Positions 11,461 to 40,531 of a stretch of DNA of 64,000 nt are shown here, in pieces. Both the position numbers and the translations under genes were made by a program. The DNA is from an uncultured Elusimicrobia bacterium. Its GTDB lineage: Bacteria > Elusimicrobiota > Elusimicrobia > Elusimicrobiales > UBA9959. Location: NCBI GenBank assembly GCA_903879915.1, contig CAIRNJ010000048.1, positions 1-64,000 on the forward strand. The letters are read 5' to 3'. Position 1 is the stretch's first letter, and each line of letters starts with the position of its first letter. The notes below the pieces were generated by a model. It worked only from the letters and a program-made list of their open reading frames with translations, was not told the origin of the DNA and ran no database searches.

Positions 11461-11757
11461 ATGAAACAGGACCTTAAAAAAAGATACGCCGCGCAGGCCG
11501 CCGTGATCAAGGCCATGGCGCATCCCACCCGGCTGCTGATACTGAATTCGCTTAAAAAAAGGGAGACCTGCGTCTGCGAACTGCGCGACCTGGTGGGCGA
11601 CGATATTTCCACGGTCTCCAAACATCTGCTGGTGCTGAAGAACGCAGGCCTGGTGGCCGCGCGCCGCGAGGGGAACTGGCTGCATTACAGGCTTACCTGC
11701 CCCTGCGTGCTGGAGTTCGCGGCCTGCGTGGGCGGCCTTAAAGGAAAGAATGTTTAA
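11461..11757 (+). CDS. arsR: ArsR-family arsenic-responsive repressor
   Basis: 98 aa from the ATG at 11461. An in-frame TTG at 11437 lies inside the promoter and is rejected. The winged helix is typical (AHPTRLLILNSL, then DISTVSKHLLVLKNAGLVAARREGNWLHYRL). The arsenic-sensing CVCEL pair (C37, C39) is in the helix used by classic ArsR proteins, and a further CPC and Cys lie near the C-terminus. Arsenite binding should release it from the palindrome over its own promoter. It heads the six-gene arsenic operon and overlaps the permease gene by 8 bases. Confidence 0.95.
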   Translation: MKQDLKKRYAAQAAVIKAMAHPTRLLILNSLKKRETCVCELRDLVGDDISTVSKHLLVLKNAGLVAARREGNWLHYRLTCPCVLEFAACVGGLKGKNV

Positions 11758-12712
11758 ACCCGTGCAGCTGCTCGCGGATTGGCTGGTGTACGGCGTGCTC
11801 GGCCTGGGGCGGGAGACGCTGGCGGGCTCCTCCGTGAATTTCTTCGTTTTCGATACGATCAAGATCTTTCTGCTGCTGGCCTGCATAATCTTCGCAGTTT
11901 CCATCATACGCACCTTCCTGCCGCCTTCGAGGATACGGGAGATCATCCTTAAGAAAAGCCGCTTCTCCGGGCATCTGTGGGCGGCCGGGCTGGGCATCAT
12001 CACCCCGTTCTGCACCTGCAGCGCCATCCCGCTGTTCCTGGGTTTCGTGCAGACCGGCATCCCGCTGGGCGTCACGTTCTCCTTCCTGGTGGCCTCCCCG
12101 ATGATAAACGAGGTGGCCCTGATAATGCTGTTCGGCATGTTCGGCCTTAAAATAGCCGCGCTGTACGCCCTCAGCGGTTTTATCATAGCGGTGATCTCCG
12201 GGCTGCTGATAGGCAGGCTTGACGTCGAGCACCTGCTGGAGGGCTTCGACGTCTCGAAAAAGATACAGAACGCTGTTTTCGGCGCCGAAATGCCCTGGCC
12301 GGAGCGTTTTTCCTTCGCACGGGACTACACCCTGGACATACTTAAGACAGTGTGGCCGTACGTGCTTATCGGCATAGGCATAGGCGCCTGGATACACGGC
12401 TACGTGCCGGAGAATTTCCTGGCCCGCTGGGCCGGCGCGGATAAATGGTACGCGGTGCCGCTGGCGACATTGGTGGGCATTCCGCTGTATTCCAACGCGG
12501 CCGGCGTCATCCCGCTGGTGAGCGCGCTGACCGAGAAAGGCGTGGCGCTGGGAACCACGCTGGCGTTCATGATGGCCGTGACCGGCCTGTCGCTGCCCGA
12601 GTTCCTTATCCTCAGGCGCGTAATGAAGCTGAAGCTGCTGTTCATTTTCTTCGGGATAGTGGGCGCGGGCATAATGTTCACGGGTTTCCTGTTCAATTTC
12701 GTGATGAAGTAG
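11750..12712 (+). CDS. arsP: ArsP/DUF318-type permease
   Basis: 320 aa with about eight membrane helices. The family hallmark TPFCTCSAIPLFLGF sits about residue 85, and a second matching half is seen near PLYSNAAGVIPLVSAL, the duplicated arrangement usual for this permease family. Characterised ArsP proteins export trivalent organoarsenicals such as methylarsenite; others in the family are uncharacterised. Placement between arsR and an arsM gene makes export of methylated arsenic the best reading. AAAGGA precedes the ATG and the gene overlaps the arsR end. Confidence 0.88.
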   Translation: MFKPVQLLADWLVYGVLGLGRETLAGSSVNFFVFDTIKIFLLLACIIFAVSIIRTFLPPSRIREIILKKSRFSGHLWAAGLGIITPFCTCSAIPLFLGFVQTGIPLGVTFSFLVASPMINEVALIMLFGMFGLKIAALYALSGFIIAVISGLLIGRLDVEHLLEGFDVSKKIQNAVFGAEMPWPERFSFARDYTLDILKTVWPYVLIGIGIGAWIHGYVPENFLARWAGADKWYAVPLATLVGIPLYSNAAGVIPLVSALTEKGVALGTTLAFMMAVTGLSLPEFLILRRVMKLKLLFIFFGIVGAGIMFTGFLFNFVMK

Positions 12713-12720
12713 GAGGAAAG

Positions 12721-12954
12721 ATGAAAAAAATACAGATATTCGGCGGCGGCTGCGCCAAATGCGCCAAACTTTACGAGCATGCCGAAGCCGCGGCAAAAGA
12801 GCTGGGTCTGGACTACGAAATGGAAAAAGTGGGGGACTATCAGAAGATAGCCGAGGCCGGGATAATGTCAACGCCGGCGCTGGCCGTAGACGGGAAACTG
12901 AAATTGGAAGGCCGCGTGCCTACGGTGGAAAGTCTTAAGGAGCTGCTCAAATGA
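12721..12954 (+). CDS. Thioredoxin-like small redox protein
   Basis: 77 aa. A thioredoxin-fold miniature with a CAKC active site (C11, C14) after the first strand (KKIQIFGGG), then a cis-Pro segment MSTPALAVDGKL. This is the TM0996/MTH895 'redox-active disulfide' group, commonly encoded next to DUF318 permeases. It may supply thiols for arsenic reduction or transfer arsenicals to the permease; this is inference. AGGAGG precedes the ATG, and its stop overlaps the start of arsM (ATGA). It is encoded in its own frame inside a longer spurious open frame. Confidence 0.9.
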   Translation: MKKIQIFGGGCAKCAKLYEHAEAAAKELGLDYEMEKVGDYQKIAEAGIMSTPALAVDGKLKLEGRVPTVESLKELLK

Positions 12955-13709
12955 AAACTCATCGCTCTGTGCACGAACTGGTAAGATCGGCCTACGGCGC
13001 GGCGGCAAAGAATTCCTCTTCCTGCTGCTCATCTTCCTGCTGCGGCGGGCCGAAGCCGGCTGCTTCCGAAGGGGAACTGGGGCTTTCCTGCGGCAACCCG
13101 GTGGCGTTCTCGAAAATCAAGAAAGGCATGACCGTGCTGGACCTGGGCAGCGGGGCGGGGAAGGACGTTTTTATCGCCGCGCCGCTGACCGGGCCGAAAG
13201 GCCGCGTGATAGGCGTGGACATGACCCCCGAGATGCTGAAGCTGGCGGCCGGCAACCTGCTGAAGTTCACCGCGCGCACCGGGCTCAGGAACGTGGAGTT
13301 CCGCAGGGGCGTGATAGAAAAGCTGCCCGTCAGGGACGGCGAGGCCGACCTGATCATCTCCAATTGCGTGATAAACCTCTCACCGGACAAGCCCGCCGTG
13401 TTCCGGGAGGCTTTCCGCGCCCTCAGGCCGGGCGGTTCTATAGTGGTGAGCGATATTGTGCTGAACCGCGAACTGCCGCCCGCGCTGAAAGAACACGCCG
13501 GGCTTTACGCCGCCTGCGTGGCCGGCGCGCAGCAGCGCCGGGAGTACCTGGGCGCAATCAAGGCCGCAGGTTTCAAGGGTATAAAACTGCTTGCGGACAG
13601 GACCTACCGCGCCGCGGACCTGGAGCTGGACCCTTTTACCGCTAAGGCCGGCAAAACGCTGGACGGCGCGGCTTCGAGCATAACGGTGTTCGCGCTGAAA
13701 AAGAAATGA
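12951..13709 (+). CDS. arsM: Arsenite S-adenosylmethionine methyltransferase
   Basis: 252 aa. The Rossmann SAM-binding motif is VLDLGSGAGKD. ArsM hallmarks are present: LGLSCGNPVAF, IISNCVINLSPDK and YAACVAGA, which carry the Cys that bind trivalent arsenic in known ArsM enzymes. An N-terminal run of Cys pairs (SSCCSSSCCGG) is an added thiol cluster. No Cys is seen near the C-terminus where some ArsM have a fourth. It converts arsenite to methylated species in the cytoplasm, feeding the ArsP-like exporter. It overlaps both neighbours by ATGA. Confidence 0.94.
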   Translation: MKTHRSVHELVRSAYGAAAKNSSSCCSSSCCGGPKPAASEGELGLSCGNPVAFSKIKKGMTVLDLGSGAGKDVFIAAPLTGPKGRVIGVDMTPEMLKLAAGNLLKFTARTGLRNVEFRRGVIEKLPVRDGEADLIISNCVINLSPDKPAVFREAFRALRPGGSIVVSDIVLNRELPPALKEHAGLYAACVAGAQQRREYLGAIKAAGFKGIKLLADRTYRAADLELDPFTAKAGKTLDGAASSITVFALKKK

Positions 13710-14140
13710 AAAAAGTGCTGTTCCTCTGCACCGGAAATTCCTGCCGCAGCCAGATGGCCGAAGGCTGGGCGAAAAAACTGCATCCCGGGGTTATCGAGGC
13801 CTGCTCCGCCGGCACCGCGCCGGGCGCGGAGGTGGACCGGCGGGCCATAAAAGTTATGGCCGAGGCCGGCGTGGATATCTCCGGCGGCGTTCCCAAGAGC
13901 GTGCAGGTTTTTAAAGATACTGCCTTCGACCTTGTGGTGACGGTCTGCGACAACGCCCGTGAAACCTGCCCCGTCTACCGGGGGATGGGCGTTAAGCTGC
14001 ACCGCGGTTTCGACGACCCCGGCACTGTTGCGGGCAAGGACGCTTCCGACGAGGCGGCGCTGCCTGTTTACCGCCGGGTGCGCGACGAGATAAAAGGGTT
14101 CGTCAAAGAACTGCCTGAAATCCTGGAGAACATAAAATGA
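13706..14140 (+). CDS. arsC: Arsenate reductase, low-molecular-weight phosphatase type
   Basis: 144 aa. The phosphatase-like P-loop CTGNSCRS (8-15) carries the nucleophile C8, and C81/C88 (VCDNARETC) form the redox pair typical of thioredoxin-coupled ArsC (the pI258 type). It reduces arsenate to arsenite in the cytoplasm. The thioredoxin-like protein encoded two genes upstream may be its electron donor. Start and stop overlap the neighbours by ATGA. Confidence 0.95.
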
Positions 14141-15213
14141 ACAGAATAATAGCTAAACTGTCCTTCCTGGACCGGTACCTGACTTTATGGATCTTCCTCG
14201 CCATGGCGGCCGGCGTAGGCGCGGGCTGGCTGTGGCCGCAGGCGGTGGCGAACTTTAACGCGGCTTCCAGCGTGGGAACCACCTCCATTCCCATCGCCAT
14301 CGGCCTGATACTGATGATGTACCCGCCGCTGGCCAAGGTTAAATACGAGGAAATGCACAGAGTTTTCGCCAATAAAAAAGTGCTGGCGCTGTCCCTGTTC
14401 CAGAACTGGCTGGCGGGCCCGGTGCTGATGACGGCGCTGGCCGTTATCTTCCTGCGGGACAAGCCCGAGTATATGGTGGGCCTTATAATGATAGGCCTGG
14501 CGCGCTGTATCGCCATGGTCATCGTCTGGAACGATCTGGCAAAAGGCGACCGTGAATACTGCGCGGGGCTGGTAGCTTTCAACTCCGTGTTCCAGGTGCT
14601 GCTCTTCCCGGTTTACGCCTGGTTCTTCATCACTATCGTGCCGCGCTGGCTGGGGCTAGAAGGCGCGGTGGTGAATATTACAATGGGAGAAATAGCGAAA
14701 AGCGTGTTCATCTACCTGGGCATTCCTTTTATCGCCGGTATAGTCACGCGGTTCTCGCTGATCGCGGCCAAAGGGCGGGACTGGTACTCGGAGAAGTTCA
14801 TCCCGGTCATAAGCCCGCTGACGCTGGTGGCGCTGCTTTTTACGATAATCGTGATGTTCTCCATAAAGGGGGAGAACATAGTTAAGGTGCCGCTGGACGT
14901 GGTGCGCGTGGCGGTCCCGCTGCTGGTCTATTTCGTCATCATGTTCTTCGCCTCTTTCTATATGAGCAAAAAAATGGGGGCGACTTACGAGGAGTCGGCT
15001 ACTTTATCTTTTACGGCCGCTTCGAATAACTTCGAGCTGGCCATCGCCGTGGCCATCGCCACTTTCGGCATCGGGCACGGCGCGGCTTTTGCCGCCGTTA
15101 TCGGGCCGCTGGTGGAAGTGCCGGTGCTGATAGGGCTGGTGAACGTTTCGCTGTGGATAGGCCGGCGGTGGTATGCCGGGCCCGTACAGGCCGCCTCTGG
15201 GCGCAGGGCGTGA
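14137..15213 (+). CDS. acr3: Arsenite efflux transporter, ACR3 family
   Basis: 358 aa with about ten membrane helices. ACR3 signatures are clear: [16 protein letters not shown], then [19 protein letters not shown] with the conserved Cys required in characterised ACR3, then [15 protein letters not shown]. It exports arsenite and is the last gene of the arsenic operon. The operon thus has two exits, ACR3 for inorganic arsenite and the ArsP-like permease probably for methylated forms. Confidence 0.95.
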
Positions 15214-16921: not shown

Positions 16922-17713
16922 TTATTTCAGGGCGCGGACTTTCTTGATAGGGAAGTCGGTGATATTCCGGCAGGATATGACAGCCAGTTCGGGCGGCAGC
17001 AGCAGGCCTTCCTTTATGGGACCGCCGCCGGCCAGGACAAGGGGCCTTTTGTTTTTCGGGATTTTAACTATTTCAGCGGCCAGCGCCCGCAGGTCCCTGA
17101 CCTGCGGGGCCAGCGAGACGGACAGCCCCAGCACCTTAGGTCGGAGGGAACTTATCAGCCCCAGTATTTCACGCCCGGGAAGGCCGGGCAGCACGGTGAA
17201 GGTTTTCAGCCCCGCGGACAGCAGGCTGGTTTCAAGGAATCTCACTCCGAGGGTGTGATAGTTCCCGTCGATGTTGGCCAGCAGGACATCCGGCTTTTCC
17301 GCCTGCCTGTTCTTCCCAAGTTCCGGATAATGCGCCTGGACGTGCGTGACCATTCTTTCCGCGAACGAGCTGAAGCGGTGCTCGGTTGCTACGGTGGCCT
17401 CGCCCTTCGCCCAGAGTTCTCCTATCTCGTAAAGAGCGGGCTGTATTATCCCTATCAGCAGGTCCTGGGGTTTTATTCCCAGGGCAAAACCTTCTTTAAC
17501 CCACCACTCCGGCGGCGAATTTATGCCGCTCCTGACCTCGTCCCTGAGTTTCGTGAAAAACGCTACCAAGGGCTGCAAGCGTTCGGAAACGTCATTCTTC
17601 CCGGCTATGCCGCTGGCGTCGCATTTCTCACAGAGACAGTGCGTCAGATTATATTTATCGAAAGGCGCACATTCGCCCAGATAGCTTTGGCAGTACGCGC
17701 ACCAGCGTATCAT
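16922..17713 (-). CDS. Cobalamin-binding protein with CarH-type W-x9-EH motif and Cys-rich N-terminus
   Basis: 263 aa from the ATG at 17713, supported by AAGGAG eight bases upstream. Residues 1-35 hold six Cys (5, 8, 15, 26, 28, 31), a likely zinc-ribbon. A four-helix cap follows (about 45-130) with W101-x9-E111-H112, the motif that shields the upper face of adenosylcobalamin in CarH/LitR photoreceptors. Then comes a B12-binding Rossmann domain with NYHTLG (H153 as candidate lower ligand). Unlike CarH there is no MerR DNA-binding domain. It is therefore a probable B12-dependent light or B12 sensor, with output through the Cys-rich part. The motif match is seen; the function is inferred. Confidence 0.82.
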   Translation of the reverse strand: MIRWCAYCQSYLGECAPFDKYNLTHCLCEKCDASGIAGKNDVSERLQPLVAFFTKLRDEVRSGINSPPEWWVKEGFALGIKPQDLLIGIIQPALYEIGELWAKGEATVATEHRFSSFAERMVTHVQAHYPELGKNRQAEKPDVLLANIDGNYHTLGVRFLETSLLSAGLKTFTVLPGLPGREILGLISSLRPKVLGLSVSLAPQVRDLRALAAEIVKIPKNKRPLVLAGGGPIKEGLLLPPELAVISCRNITDFPIKKVRALK

Positions 17714-34545: not shown

Positions 34546-35610
34546 ATGCCTAAACGCGACGTTATTGCCGGAGAAACCAAAAGCATCCTTAAAAAAGTTT
34601 CCCGCACTCTTTACCTGAGCGTCAACATCCTTCCCGAGCCGGCCCGCTCGCTTATGGGCCTGGGCTATATGCTTTGCCGCGCCATGGATACGGTAGTGGA
34701 CACGCCCGGCGTTCCCGCCCCGGAGAAGCTCGAGTTCCTGAACCTTATGCGCGGGCTGGATACGCCCGGCAACGCCGCCCGCCTTGAGGAGCTCTCAGGG
34801 AAGCTGGCTCCCCTTGCGGGCTTTCCCGGCGAGAAGGAGCTGCTGTTCAAACTCGGCAAGCTGTTGGCGCTTTACGAACGCCTGCCGGCGCACGACAAGG
34901 AGCTTTTTACCCCGCTGTTTGGCGGGGTGGCCGCCGGCATGGAGATGGATATAAAATGCTTCCCGGGCGGCCAGCCGGCGGCCCTGCAGGAGGCCGAGGA
35001 CCTTGAGCGCTACTGTTCCCTGGTGGGCGGGGCGCCGGGCGTTTTCTGGGCCCGGCTTTACCGCGAGACCATCAGGCGGGCCAGCCACTCGGCCGTGGCT
35101 TTCCCTTCGGAAAAAGAGGCGGAGGCGATAGGCGCCGCGCTGCAGATGACCAATGTGCTCAAGGACATAGCCGCCGATCTGCGGCTGGGGCGCTGCTACC
35201 TGCCGCAGTCCGACCTGAACGCGAACAATCTTAGGCCGGGTGAACTGCTTGATCCGGCCGCCATGCCGCGCATAAGGGAGACGGTCGGCAAATGGATAGC
35301 CTGGGCCATGGACCGCCTCGACCTTAGCGAGTCTTTCCTGCTGAAAGTGCCCAAGACCGAATTGACCCTGCGCGCGGCCGTTATCTGGCCGGTTTACTGG
35401 GCCATGGAAACTCTGGAAGCCGTGGCGCATTCCAACCTGCTCGATCCCGCCGACAGGCCGAAGATAAAACGCAGCCGCATCTACGCCACCATCGCGTCCA
35501 CGCCGCCGCTGCTGCTCAGCAATACCGCTTTCGCGCGCGGCTACCGCTTCCGCCGGGAGATGCTCATTGTTTCAATAACCGGCGGGAATTTCGAAGGCCG
35601 GGCTATCTAG
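34546..35610 (+). CDS. Squalene/phytoene synthase family protein
   Basis: 354 aa. Two Asp-rich motifs bind Mg-diphosphate: CRAMDTVVDTP (first) and QMTNVLKDIAADLRLGRCYLP (second, the classic N-x3-D-x3-D followed by GRxYLP). Substrates are two prenyl diphosphates joined head to head, giving squalene-type or phytoene-type products; sequence alone does not separate the two. AAGGG lies 4-5 bases before the ATG. No other carotenoid or hopanoid gene is in the window, so the gene stands alone here. Confidence 0.9.
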   Translation: MPKRDVIAGETKSILKKVSRTLYLSVNILPEPARSLMGLGYMLCRAMDTVVDTPGVPAPEKLEFLNLMRGLDTPGNAARLEELSGKLAPLAGFPGEKELLFKLGKLLALYERLPAHDKELFTPLFGGVAAGMEMDIKCFPGGQPAALQEAEDLERYCSLVGGAPGVFWARLYRETIRRASHSAVAFPSEKEAEAIGAALQMTNVLKDIAADLRLGRCYLPQSDLNANNLRPGELLDPAAMPRIRETVGKWIAWAMDRLDLSESFLLKVPKTELTLRAAVIWPVYWAMETLEAVAHSNLLDPADRPKIKRSRIYATIASTPPLLLSNTAFARGYRFRREMLIVSITGGNFEGRAI

Positions 35611-38329: not shown

Positions 38330-38513
38330 CCGGTAAATATTTTTTTCATTATCATAGGGTCCCCTTATTTGGTCTTCTGCCGTCTTGCTCCTATGATACC
38401 TGTCCGTCCCTGCCGGCCGCTATGCGGAGTTGTACGCGGTCCCTTTCTGTAGGATCCCCGCACCCGCCCGTCTTTCTCCGCAGGGTCCGGTTCCGCGGCT
38501 GGATGCAGTTTGA

Positions 38514-38660
38514 TATAATTAACGTGTTCTGGCGGAGGAATCCGGTGTAAATCCGGAGCTGCCCCGCAACGGTGATGTCCGTCCCTGACGGTCTAAGCCC
38601 GGTCTACCGCCGGAACGGTCGCAGCCTGCGAGGGACGGCATTTTTCCTTTTAAGGGAGGG
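38514..38660 (+). promoter_or_regulatory. Cobalamin riboswitch with promoter
   Basis: TATAAT (38514-38519) starts the leader. GGCGGAGGAATCCGGTG, then AAATCCGGAGCTGCCCCGCAACGGT, is the most conserved core of the AdoCbl riboswitch (RF00174). A B12-box-like AGCCCGG...CCGCC lies at 38596-38611, with CCGCC able to pair with the upstream GGCGG. CCGTCCCT (38579-38586) pairs with AGGGACGG (38631-38638), closing before a TTTTTCCTTTT tract. It precedes a TonB receptor gene, its usual target: cobalamin should switch the gene off. Confidence 0.95.
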
Positions 38661-38701: not shown

Positions 38702-40531
38702 ATGAGGATCATGCCAGCGTTGTTCCTGTTGTTGTTCTGTTCCCCTGACCTGTACTCCGCCGATAAGACCGGCCCCGACGTATTTTTTTCCATTTCAAGG
38801 ACCGCCGCTTACCGCGCGCTGCCGCCAGTCGACGCCAGAACGCTGGACGCCGCCGCCCTGGAGCGGCAAGGCACGGCTTCCCTGGCCGACCTGCTGGAGG
38901 GCTCGCTGCCGCTGACCATCAGGCGGCTGAACGGCCCGCTGGGCCTGGCCACCGTTTCGATGCGCGGCTTCCAGGCCAAGCAGACGGCGGTGTTCATGGA
39001 CGATGTCCGCGTTCCCTCGGATATAACCGGCACGGTAGATCTTTCCCTGATCCCGGCCGCGGGGCTGGGCAAGGTCGAGATACTTCCGGGAGCGGCCTCC
39101 TCCATATACGGCGGCAACGCGGAGGGCGGGGTGGTGCAGCTGTTCACGCGCCGCCTTTCCCCGGGGGCCAGGCTGGCCGGCGCGGAGGCCTCCTGCGGCT
39201 CTTATGCCGCCCGCCACGGTTCCGTAAAGGCCGGCGCCGCCGGGCGGCGGCTGGAGGTTTTCTTCGGCGGCTCGTCGGACGCTTCGGCCGGCTTCCAGCA
39301 GAACTCGAAGCTGGACAAGGCCGCCGCCAACGGCCGCGTTTCGCTGGCCCTGGGCGCGGCGGGCAGCCTTACCTTTACCGGCTTCGTGTCGCGCCTGAAA
39401 ACGGGGCTGCCGTCCGGCACGCCGGTGCCGGTGGCCGATTGGGACGGCTCCAAAGAACGGACCGCAAATTCCCTTACCGACCGGCAGACCTCGAAGCGGA
39501 ATTTCCTGTCCGGCTCCTGGAGCGTGGGCGGCAATGACCTGGCCCTGCGGGTGGATTCCTCCCTTTCCTCGAACGATATAGAAGCGTTCCAGTGGGGGGC
39601 GCTCAACGGGGCGAAGGTTACGGACAGAGCGCTGGCCGCCAGGCTGACGCTGGCCCGTACCGCGGTGCTGGGGGCGGAAAGCGCGGTCTCCAGGCTGGCT
39701 TCCGGCACTTACGGCGACCACGCGCTGGATTCGGCCGGCTTCTTCGCGCAGAAAACTTTCAGCCCGGCTGAAGGCCTTGAACTGACGCCGGGGGCCAGGC
39801 TGGATAAAAGCGCCGGCTTCAAAAGCCGGGTCAGCCCCAAGCTGGCGGCGGTTTACGCGCCGGATGAAAAATGGAAGTTCTCGGCCTCCGGCGGCTATGG
39901 CTTCCAGGCGCCGACTTTCGCCGACCTCTATAACCCCTGGGCGGCGCCAGCCCCGGGGCTTAAGCCCGAGACCAGCCTGAACGTCAATGCGGCCGTGTCT
40001 TACGGCTCGCCCGACGGCTGGTACGCCGGCCTGGCCGGCTATTATTCCGACATTAAAGACAGGATAGCGCTGGACCCCGTAACCTGGGCGGCGGCCAACC
40101 TGGACGCCGGCTTTAACACCGGCCTGGAGGCCGAAGCGGGTTACAGAGCGGATGAGGTGACGGCCTCGGCCGGCTATGTGCGCAATATAAGCATGGTGAA
40201 GACCGGCGGCGCCGGCTACAAGCTGCTGAACTTCAGCCCGGCGCAGCGTTTCACCGGCTCGGTTACGGTTAAAGCCGCCGGCCTGGACCTGGGCCTCAGC
40301 GGCCGCGGCGCTGCCAGGCAGTATACCGGGCGGGGGAAAACCGGCCTGCGCCTGCCGGAATTCTGGGTGTTCGGCTTCACCGCGGCCAGGAAGTTAGGCG
40401 CGTTGGAAGTGTGGGGGGGCGTAGGCAATATCTTCGACCGCCATTACGCCGAGACCGCCGACGCTTTCAACGGCTGGTTCCCCCAGCCCGGCCGCACTTT
40501 CACCGCAGGCCTGAAAGCCCGCTTCCTATAG
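38702..40531 (+). CDS. btuB: TonB-dependent receptor, BtuB-like (cobalamin uptake)
   Basis: 609 aa. A signal peptide (ALFLLLFCSPDLYSA) is followed by a plug domain (ALERQGTASLADLLEGSLPLTIRRLNGPLGLATVSMRGFQAKQTAVFMDDVRVPS, then VEILPGAASSIYGGNAEGGVV) and a 22-strand barrel ending in KARFL. The plug and length match BtuB-type vitamin B12 receptors, and the cobalamin riboswitch directly upstream makes B12 or a corrinoid the likely cargo. A clear TonB box is not obvious near the N-terminus. GGAGG precedes the ATG. No btuCDF genes are in the window. Confidence 0.93.
   Translation: MRIMPALFLLLFCSPDLYSADKTGPDVFFSISRTAAYRALPPVDARTLDAAALERQGTASLADLLEGSLPLTIRRLNGPLGLATVSMRGFQAKQTAVFMDDVRVPSDITGTVDLSLIPAAGLGKVEILPGAASSIYGGNAEGGVVQLFTRRLSPGARLAGAEASCGSYAARHGSVKAGAAGRRLEVFFGGSSDASAGFQQNSKLDKAAANGRVSLALGAAGSLTFTGFVSRLKTGLPSGTPVPVADWDGSKERTANSLTDRQTSKRNFLSGSWSVGGNDLALRVDSSLSSNDIEAFQWGALNGAKVTDRALAARLTLARTAVLGAESAVSRLASGTYGDHALDSAGFFAQKTFSPAEGLELTPGARLDKSAGFKSRVSPKLAAVYAPDEKWKFSASGGYGFQAPTFADLYNPWAAPAPGLKPETSLNVNAAVSYGSPDGWYAGLAGYYSDIKDRIALDPVTWAAANLDAGFNTGLEAEAGYRADEVTASAGYVRNISMVKTGGAGYKLLNFSPAQRFTGSVTVKAAGLDLGLSGRGAARQYTGRGKTGLRLPEFWVFGFTAARKLGALEVWGGVGNIFDRHYAETADAFNGWFPQPGRTFTAGLKARFL

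Follow-up and report, generated by a model that had tools for sequence, protein, structure and literature searches.

A cysteine-ribbon protein with a B12-sensor-type cap and fold in Elusimicrobiota and Myxococcota

Background

The window analysed here, a 64,000-nucleotide stretch of DNA from an uncultured Elusimicrobia bacterium (contig CAIRNJ010000048.1), encodes a protein that resembles the adenosylcobalamin (AdoCbl) photoreceptors CarH and LitR but begins with a cluster of cysteines instead of a MerR domain. A first-pass annotation had read it as a CarH-like B12 sensor without a DNA-binding domain. Two questions are raised by this locus: which kind of B12 domain the protein carries, and what could serve as its output.

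The B12 photoreceptor signature of SignatureFinder comprises four marks, GxxW, EH, GxxH, and GxxxP (PMC11796333), and that study lists 1,561 candidates. The key AdoCbl residues of CarH are W131, E141, H142, and H177 (PMC11796333), and the B12-binding motif has been written as D/ExHxxG-x41-SxT/V...GG (PMC9304148).

Results

The gene is real: it occupies 16922..17713 on the minus strand as an open frame of 263 aa plus stop, its ATG lies seven bases 3' of an AAGGAGA, and in the alignment most homologues share this start position. The translation of 17713-16922 has W101, E111-H112, and H153 where the annotation had placed them. A helical cap domain (Pfam B12-binding_2, aa 71-124, 17342..17503, minus strand) scored 36.9 bits against a cut-off of 23 and includes the Wx9EH motif, which runs from W101 to E111-H112 (17378..17413, minus strand). 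The Rossmann-like B12-binding domain (aa 142-233, 17015..17290, minus strand; Pfam E 2.2e-6) scored 27.9 bits, slightly below the Pfam cut-off of 32.1, and 29.7 bits in a whole-genome search; it holds the axial-ligand loop G150-N151-Y152-H153-T154-L155-G156 (17246..17266, minus strand). The best NCBIfam match of the protein was CarH at 36.2 bits, below the equivalog cut-off of 400 bits, with the corrinoid protein MtgC in second place (30 bits). The family search matched neither a MerR domain nor a DNA-binding domain of any other kind, and an N-terminal ribbon of four cysteines plus H25 (aa 4-31, 17621..17704, minus strand) stands instead, in line with the earlier reading. That reading counted six N-terminal cysteines, all of which exist (C5, C8, C15, C26, C28, and C31), but only C5, C8, C28, and C31 are conserved; C15 is private to the window protein among the aligned sequences, and C26 is Gly or Thr in the others.

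The AF2 model of the 263-aa protein (pLDDT 88) consists of the ribbon, a helical cap, and a Rossmann-like domain, with strands at 2-5, 11-14, and 23-26 and a helix at 29-33 in the ribbon. Foldseek matched it to CarH and photocobilin B12 domains with E-values of 6e-8 to 4e-7 and a TM (target) of up to 0.73. The B12 domains of MetH, TtCarH, CtMerR (8jbs/8jbt), and photocobilins were returned at similar significance, with MetH as the top matches. In this structural comparison with CarH, which the annotation had proposed, CarH is matched, but Foldseek does not separate CarH from MetH.

Key positions were read off 111 B12-domain frames taken from the fetched loci, some of them overlapping, and a maximum-likelihood tree was built from 77 domains, in which MerR-type proteins were recognised by a simple sequence pattern. 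If the protein were a corrinoid methyl carrier like MtaC, MtgC, or MetH, the weak MtgC and MetH matches and the top place of MetH in Foldseek would be explained. However, Phe or Tyr takes the place of the Trp in the methyl carriers of the set, which also lack EH, and the tree splits the Wx9EH proteins from them with support of 100/99. The CarH model also outscores MtgC, and no methyltransferase was found among the scanned neighbours. The annotation had named alignment of the motif with ordinary methyl-carrier caps as the outcome that would overturn it; instead, motifs and tree place the protein with the Wx9EH sensors. We reject a methyl-carrier identity on these two grounds and give it next to no weight. 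The comparison supports a cap and B12 fold of the AdoCbl-sensor (Wx9EH) type.

Across 13 aligned ribbon proteins, W4, C5, C8, Q9, G13, P17, H25, C28, C31, G98, W101, E111, N151, H153, G156, and S198 are invariant; H112 is kept in 12/13. The family carries three of the four published photoreceptor marks. GxxW is present throughout, as G98 and W101. EH is found in 12 of the 13, the window protein included (L099 has EQ), and so is GxxH, as GNYH in the window protein (L096 has DNRH). At the GxxxP site, all 13 have L, A, Y, T, or Q where the Gly would be, while the Pro is kept in 12; the window protein has L175...P179. Measured against the published B12-binding motif, H153, G156, the x41 spacing, S198, and G229-G230 are present, with Asn in place of Asp/Glu and Ser/Ala in place of Thr/Val. 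This Asn, two residues ahead of the axial His, is shared by all ribbon members and is also seen in a small number of Wx9EH proteins that have no ribbon. W101 is followed by Ala in the window protein, and a His equivalent to CarH H132 was seen only in L099 of the 13.

In the tree, the ribbon family and one ribbonless relative, L100, form a single clade (100/98), and the MerR-type proteins lie elsewhere. L100 has Wx9EA instead of Wx9EH, possibly a degenerate or B12-independent form. By its sequence the ribbon family is not CarH, since it has a separate clade, no H132 (L099 aside), Asn in the axial motif, and no Gly in GxxxP. The CarH/LitR-type arrangement proposed earlier therefore stands for the sensor-type cap and fold, but not for CarH itself. 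The lost Gly and the axial-motif Asn could mean a different ligand preference, and a strict use of the published signature would miss the family because of the lost Gly. Many Wx9EH proteins are without MerR, and a B12 sensor lacking a DNA-binding domain is less unusual than the first-pass annotation implied (PMC11796333; PMC10979010; AerR, PMC9144470).

A search for the Cys-rich/cap/B12 architecture, which the annotation had suggested, yielded at least 16 full-length proteins with this layout, from genomes of Elusimicrobiota and Myxococcota, with no further recognised domains in the 16. Within the source genus, 6 of 32 genomes hold an intact copy (the source genome counted), and these relatives are 66-50% identical. 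A second genus of the same family contributes one genome, with a copy at ~31% identity, and the remaining members come from Myxococcota-type genomes. The sampling covered these two phyla, with the whole-collection scan made by near-exact peptides only. Conservation reaches down to 29% identity across the two phyla, which makes the motif pattern more than chance. Plasmid relatives were B12-domain matches only (about 25-28% identity, without the N-terminus), and no relatives were found on viral contigs.

In genome G002, 771 bases are missing, with approximately residues 1-224 of the protein gone and flanks that are 86-93% identical; the deletion is clean, at L080 1487-1499, between otherwise syntenic flanks. 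In genome G010, a decayed ribbon piece is all that is left of the gene. With the gene largely deleted in one genome and decayed in another, it is accessory and its role dispensable; the genomes are drafts, and some gene absences may be assembly gaps. The combination of ribbon, cap, and B12 fold is a real and conserved architecture within the known class of AdoCbl-type B12 sensors with diverse outputs, and no description of it was found in the literature searched.

The ribbon follows the pattern WCxYCQ-x3-G-x3-P-x7-H-x2-C-x2-C, and its four conserved cysteines and H25 are also kept in three sequences found after the alignment. No Pfam family covers it above cut-off. A family-profile search matched N-terminal ribbons on PAS proteins within the phylum. 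A pattern search of the source genome found three more ribbons, C-terminal on a REC, a GAF, and a PAS-type protein (names that are our reading of the sequence), while the reversed pattern gave zero matches. These three loci (L127, L128, and L129, on G000 C50, C72, and C102) are response-regulator-like, GAF-like, and PAS-like, with a ribbon of the form CxxC...[ST]HG-x-CxxC that no Pfam model matched above cut-off. In the PAS proteins L090, L091, and L089, a short ribbon ahead of the PAS part is joined by a second conserved block, GCGKT-x2-C-x2-C.

Aligned with hhalign, the B12 ribbons matched six REC/GAF/PAS ribbons (CxxC...[ST]H-x2-CxxC) at 97.8% probability and a score of 53.1, compared to at most 26.4 for 60 shuffles keeping the Cys/His columns and at most 18 for five unrelated zinc ribbons. 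Since the six rows of the profile were chosen by hand, the result supports homology with the ribbons of REC, GAF, and PAS signalling proteins and does not measure its extent. The suggestion that a Cys ribbon replaces the MerR domain was upheld and gains this apparent kinship. The ribbon has the look of a mobile module for signalling, and of all parts of the protein it is the strongest candidate for the output.

A different role for the ribbon would be that of a redox part, with rubredoxin-like iron or thiols reducing or sensing the cobalamin of its own chain. Its four invariant cysteines would suit such a part, as would the weak hit that related N-terminal ribbons gave to the PknG rubredoxin model (E 0.004, under the cut-off). 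Rubredoxin itself was unmatched in the profile test, however, and the role would not fit the homologous ribbons of REC, GAF, and PAS proteins, which have no B12; we regard it as improbable. The invariant H25 was also considered as an AerR-like upper axial ligand, but it makes poor evidence for one: the equivalent His is kept equally where the ribbon sits on a protein that lacks B12, and membership of the ribbon module accounts for it better.

The cobalamin riboswitch and receptor mentioned in the first-pass annotation were both located: an AdoCbl riboswitch (RF01482, 58.5 bits) lies at 38510-38645 on the plus strand, with a TonB-dependent receptor directly downstream (38702-40528, plus strand). 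The source genome also encodes a PduO-type adenosyltransferase, and the only cap-domain proteins found in it are the ribbon-B12 protein and a 1135-aa MetH-type protein. No conserved neighbour genes of the ribbon-B12 gene were found among 10 loci, so that the surroundings point to no partner. In one genome (G009), a hybrid histidine kinase gene (REC-PAS-GAF-HisKA-HATPase-REC; L076 10651-13131, minus strand) precedes the ribbon-B12 gene by ~140 bases in the same orientation, a single case. Elsewhere in the window, 11750-15213 (plus strand) looks from its sequence like an arsenic cluster of a permease, a small thioredoxin-like protein, a Cys-rich ArsM-type methyltransferase, an ArsC-type phosphatase, and an ACR3-type transporter.

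These surroundings bear on the natural signal. In a stronger form of the AdoCbl-sensor explanation, which overlaps with it, AdoCbl photolysis would be the signal and the protein would control photo-oxidative defence like CarH. The photoreceptor-type signature speaks for this, and so do genes of the squalene/phytoene synthase family (SQS_PSY), found in 30 of the 32 genomes of the genus, with one copy inside the window (34546-35604, plus strand). However, these genes are present with or without the ribbon gene and may serve squalene or hopanoid synthesis, photolyase is absent from all 32 genomes, and the His of CarH H132 is missing. A second SQS_PSY copy lies on the same contig beyond the window (71390-72136), and no carotenoid cluster was seen by eye in the open reading frames around it, which also counts against a light sensor. 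Across the genus, the distribution of the ribbon gene relative to photolyase and SQS_PSY was uninformative.

Alternatively, and also as a specific form of the AdoCbl-sensor explanation, light would not be used in nature and the apo and AdoCbl-bound states would report AdoCbl supply or oxidation. That the genome imports and adenosylates cobalamin, and that the genus has no photolyase, fits such a sensor. One relative comes from the bin GWD2_63_28, which we take to be groundwater, and this was counted on the same side. Against it, the signature proteins tested in PMC11796333 are light-responsive. Given the lack of conserved neighbours and of photolyase, and the presence of SQS_PSY regardless of the ribbon gene, light and AdoCbl supply are equally placed as signals; we hold each as a tentative possibility.

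Discussion

The explanation that we find the more probable is a soluble AdoCbl sensor of the Wx9EH class whose output is protein contact through the ribbon, as in AerR or the stand-alone photocobilins. Behind it stand the domain architecture, the conserved motifs, the clade, the predicted fold, the homology of the ribbon, and the genes for AdoCbl supply in the source genome. AdoCbl is predicted to be sandwiched by the cap helices and the Rossmann-like fold, with H153 as its lower axial ligand and with W101, E111, and H112 on the side of the adenosyl group. Were that group lost, through light or because AdoCbl runs short or becomes oxidised, cap and oligomer would change, and the N-terminal C4 ribbon, presumably holding a metal, would pass on this change of state by contacting a partner, not DNA. 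From the sequence comparisons, AdoCbl binding is likely and a protein-contact output plausible. No output route of a B12 protein by ribbon contact was found described in the literature searched. We think it rather unlikely, though conceivable, that the ribbon is a plug-in linking the B12 sensor to the cell's ribbon-bearing REC, GAF, and PAS proteins, so that AdoCbl state or light would feed two-component signalling.

Like CarH and LitR, the ribbon-B12 protein has the cap and B12 fold, Wx9EH, and the axial His in xHxxG; the ribbon in place of MerR sets it apart, along with the differences of motif and clade given above. In one study of TtCarH, loss of H132 stops tetramer dissociation (PMC10442372). 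CtMerR and the photocobilins are missing this His and yet respond to light (PMC11796333), so its absence does not exclude a light response. CtMerR, from Chloracidobacterium, is thus similar in having H132 replaced, but differs in bearing a MerR-type DNA-binding domain.

Compared by description, AerR/PpaA, the B12 antirepressor of CrtJ/PpsR, is also a cap and B12 protein with an N-terminal extension and no DNA-binding domain. It acts by protein contact, with CrtJ as the target of AerR (PMC5362033), and the same kind of output is proposed here. Unlike the AdoCbl sensor proposed here, LAerR binds hydroxocobalamin tightly, with His10 of the extension as upper ligand, and no ribbon is described for AerR/PpaA in that source (PMC9144470). 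Photocobilins and photoglobins, which pair B12 with a bilin globin, offer a further likeness as GxxW/EH B12 sensors with non-DNA output, stand-alone forms included, and a stand-alone photocobilin regulates its partner through contact (PMC10979010); the ribbon-B12 protein has no globin or bilin domain. Heliorhodopsins are photoreceptors with an N-terminal ribbon, CxxC-17x-CxxC (PMC8612252), against CxxC-19x-CxxC here; the likeness is one of spacing pattern, and their sensor domain is unrelated to the B12 fold.

Conclusions

If AdoCbl is bound and its loss, or light, is sensed, this family would add to the B12 sensors a compact lineage that lacks a DNA-binding domain. For the ribbon, which signalling proteins of several kinds carry and which no Pfam model matches above cut-off, this would give a first functional handle. 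A fold of the B12 photoreceptor type would then be kept in a genus without photolyase, where the choice between a light sensor and an AdoCbl-supply sensor would be directly testable.
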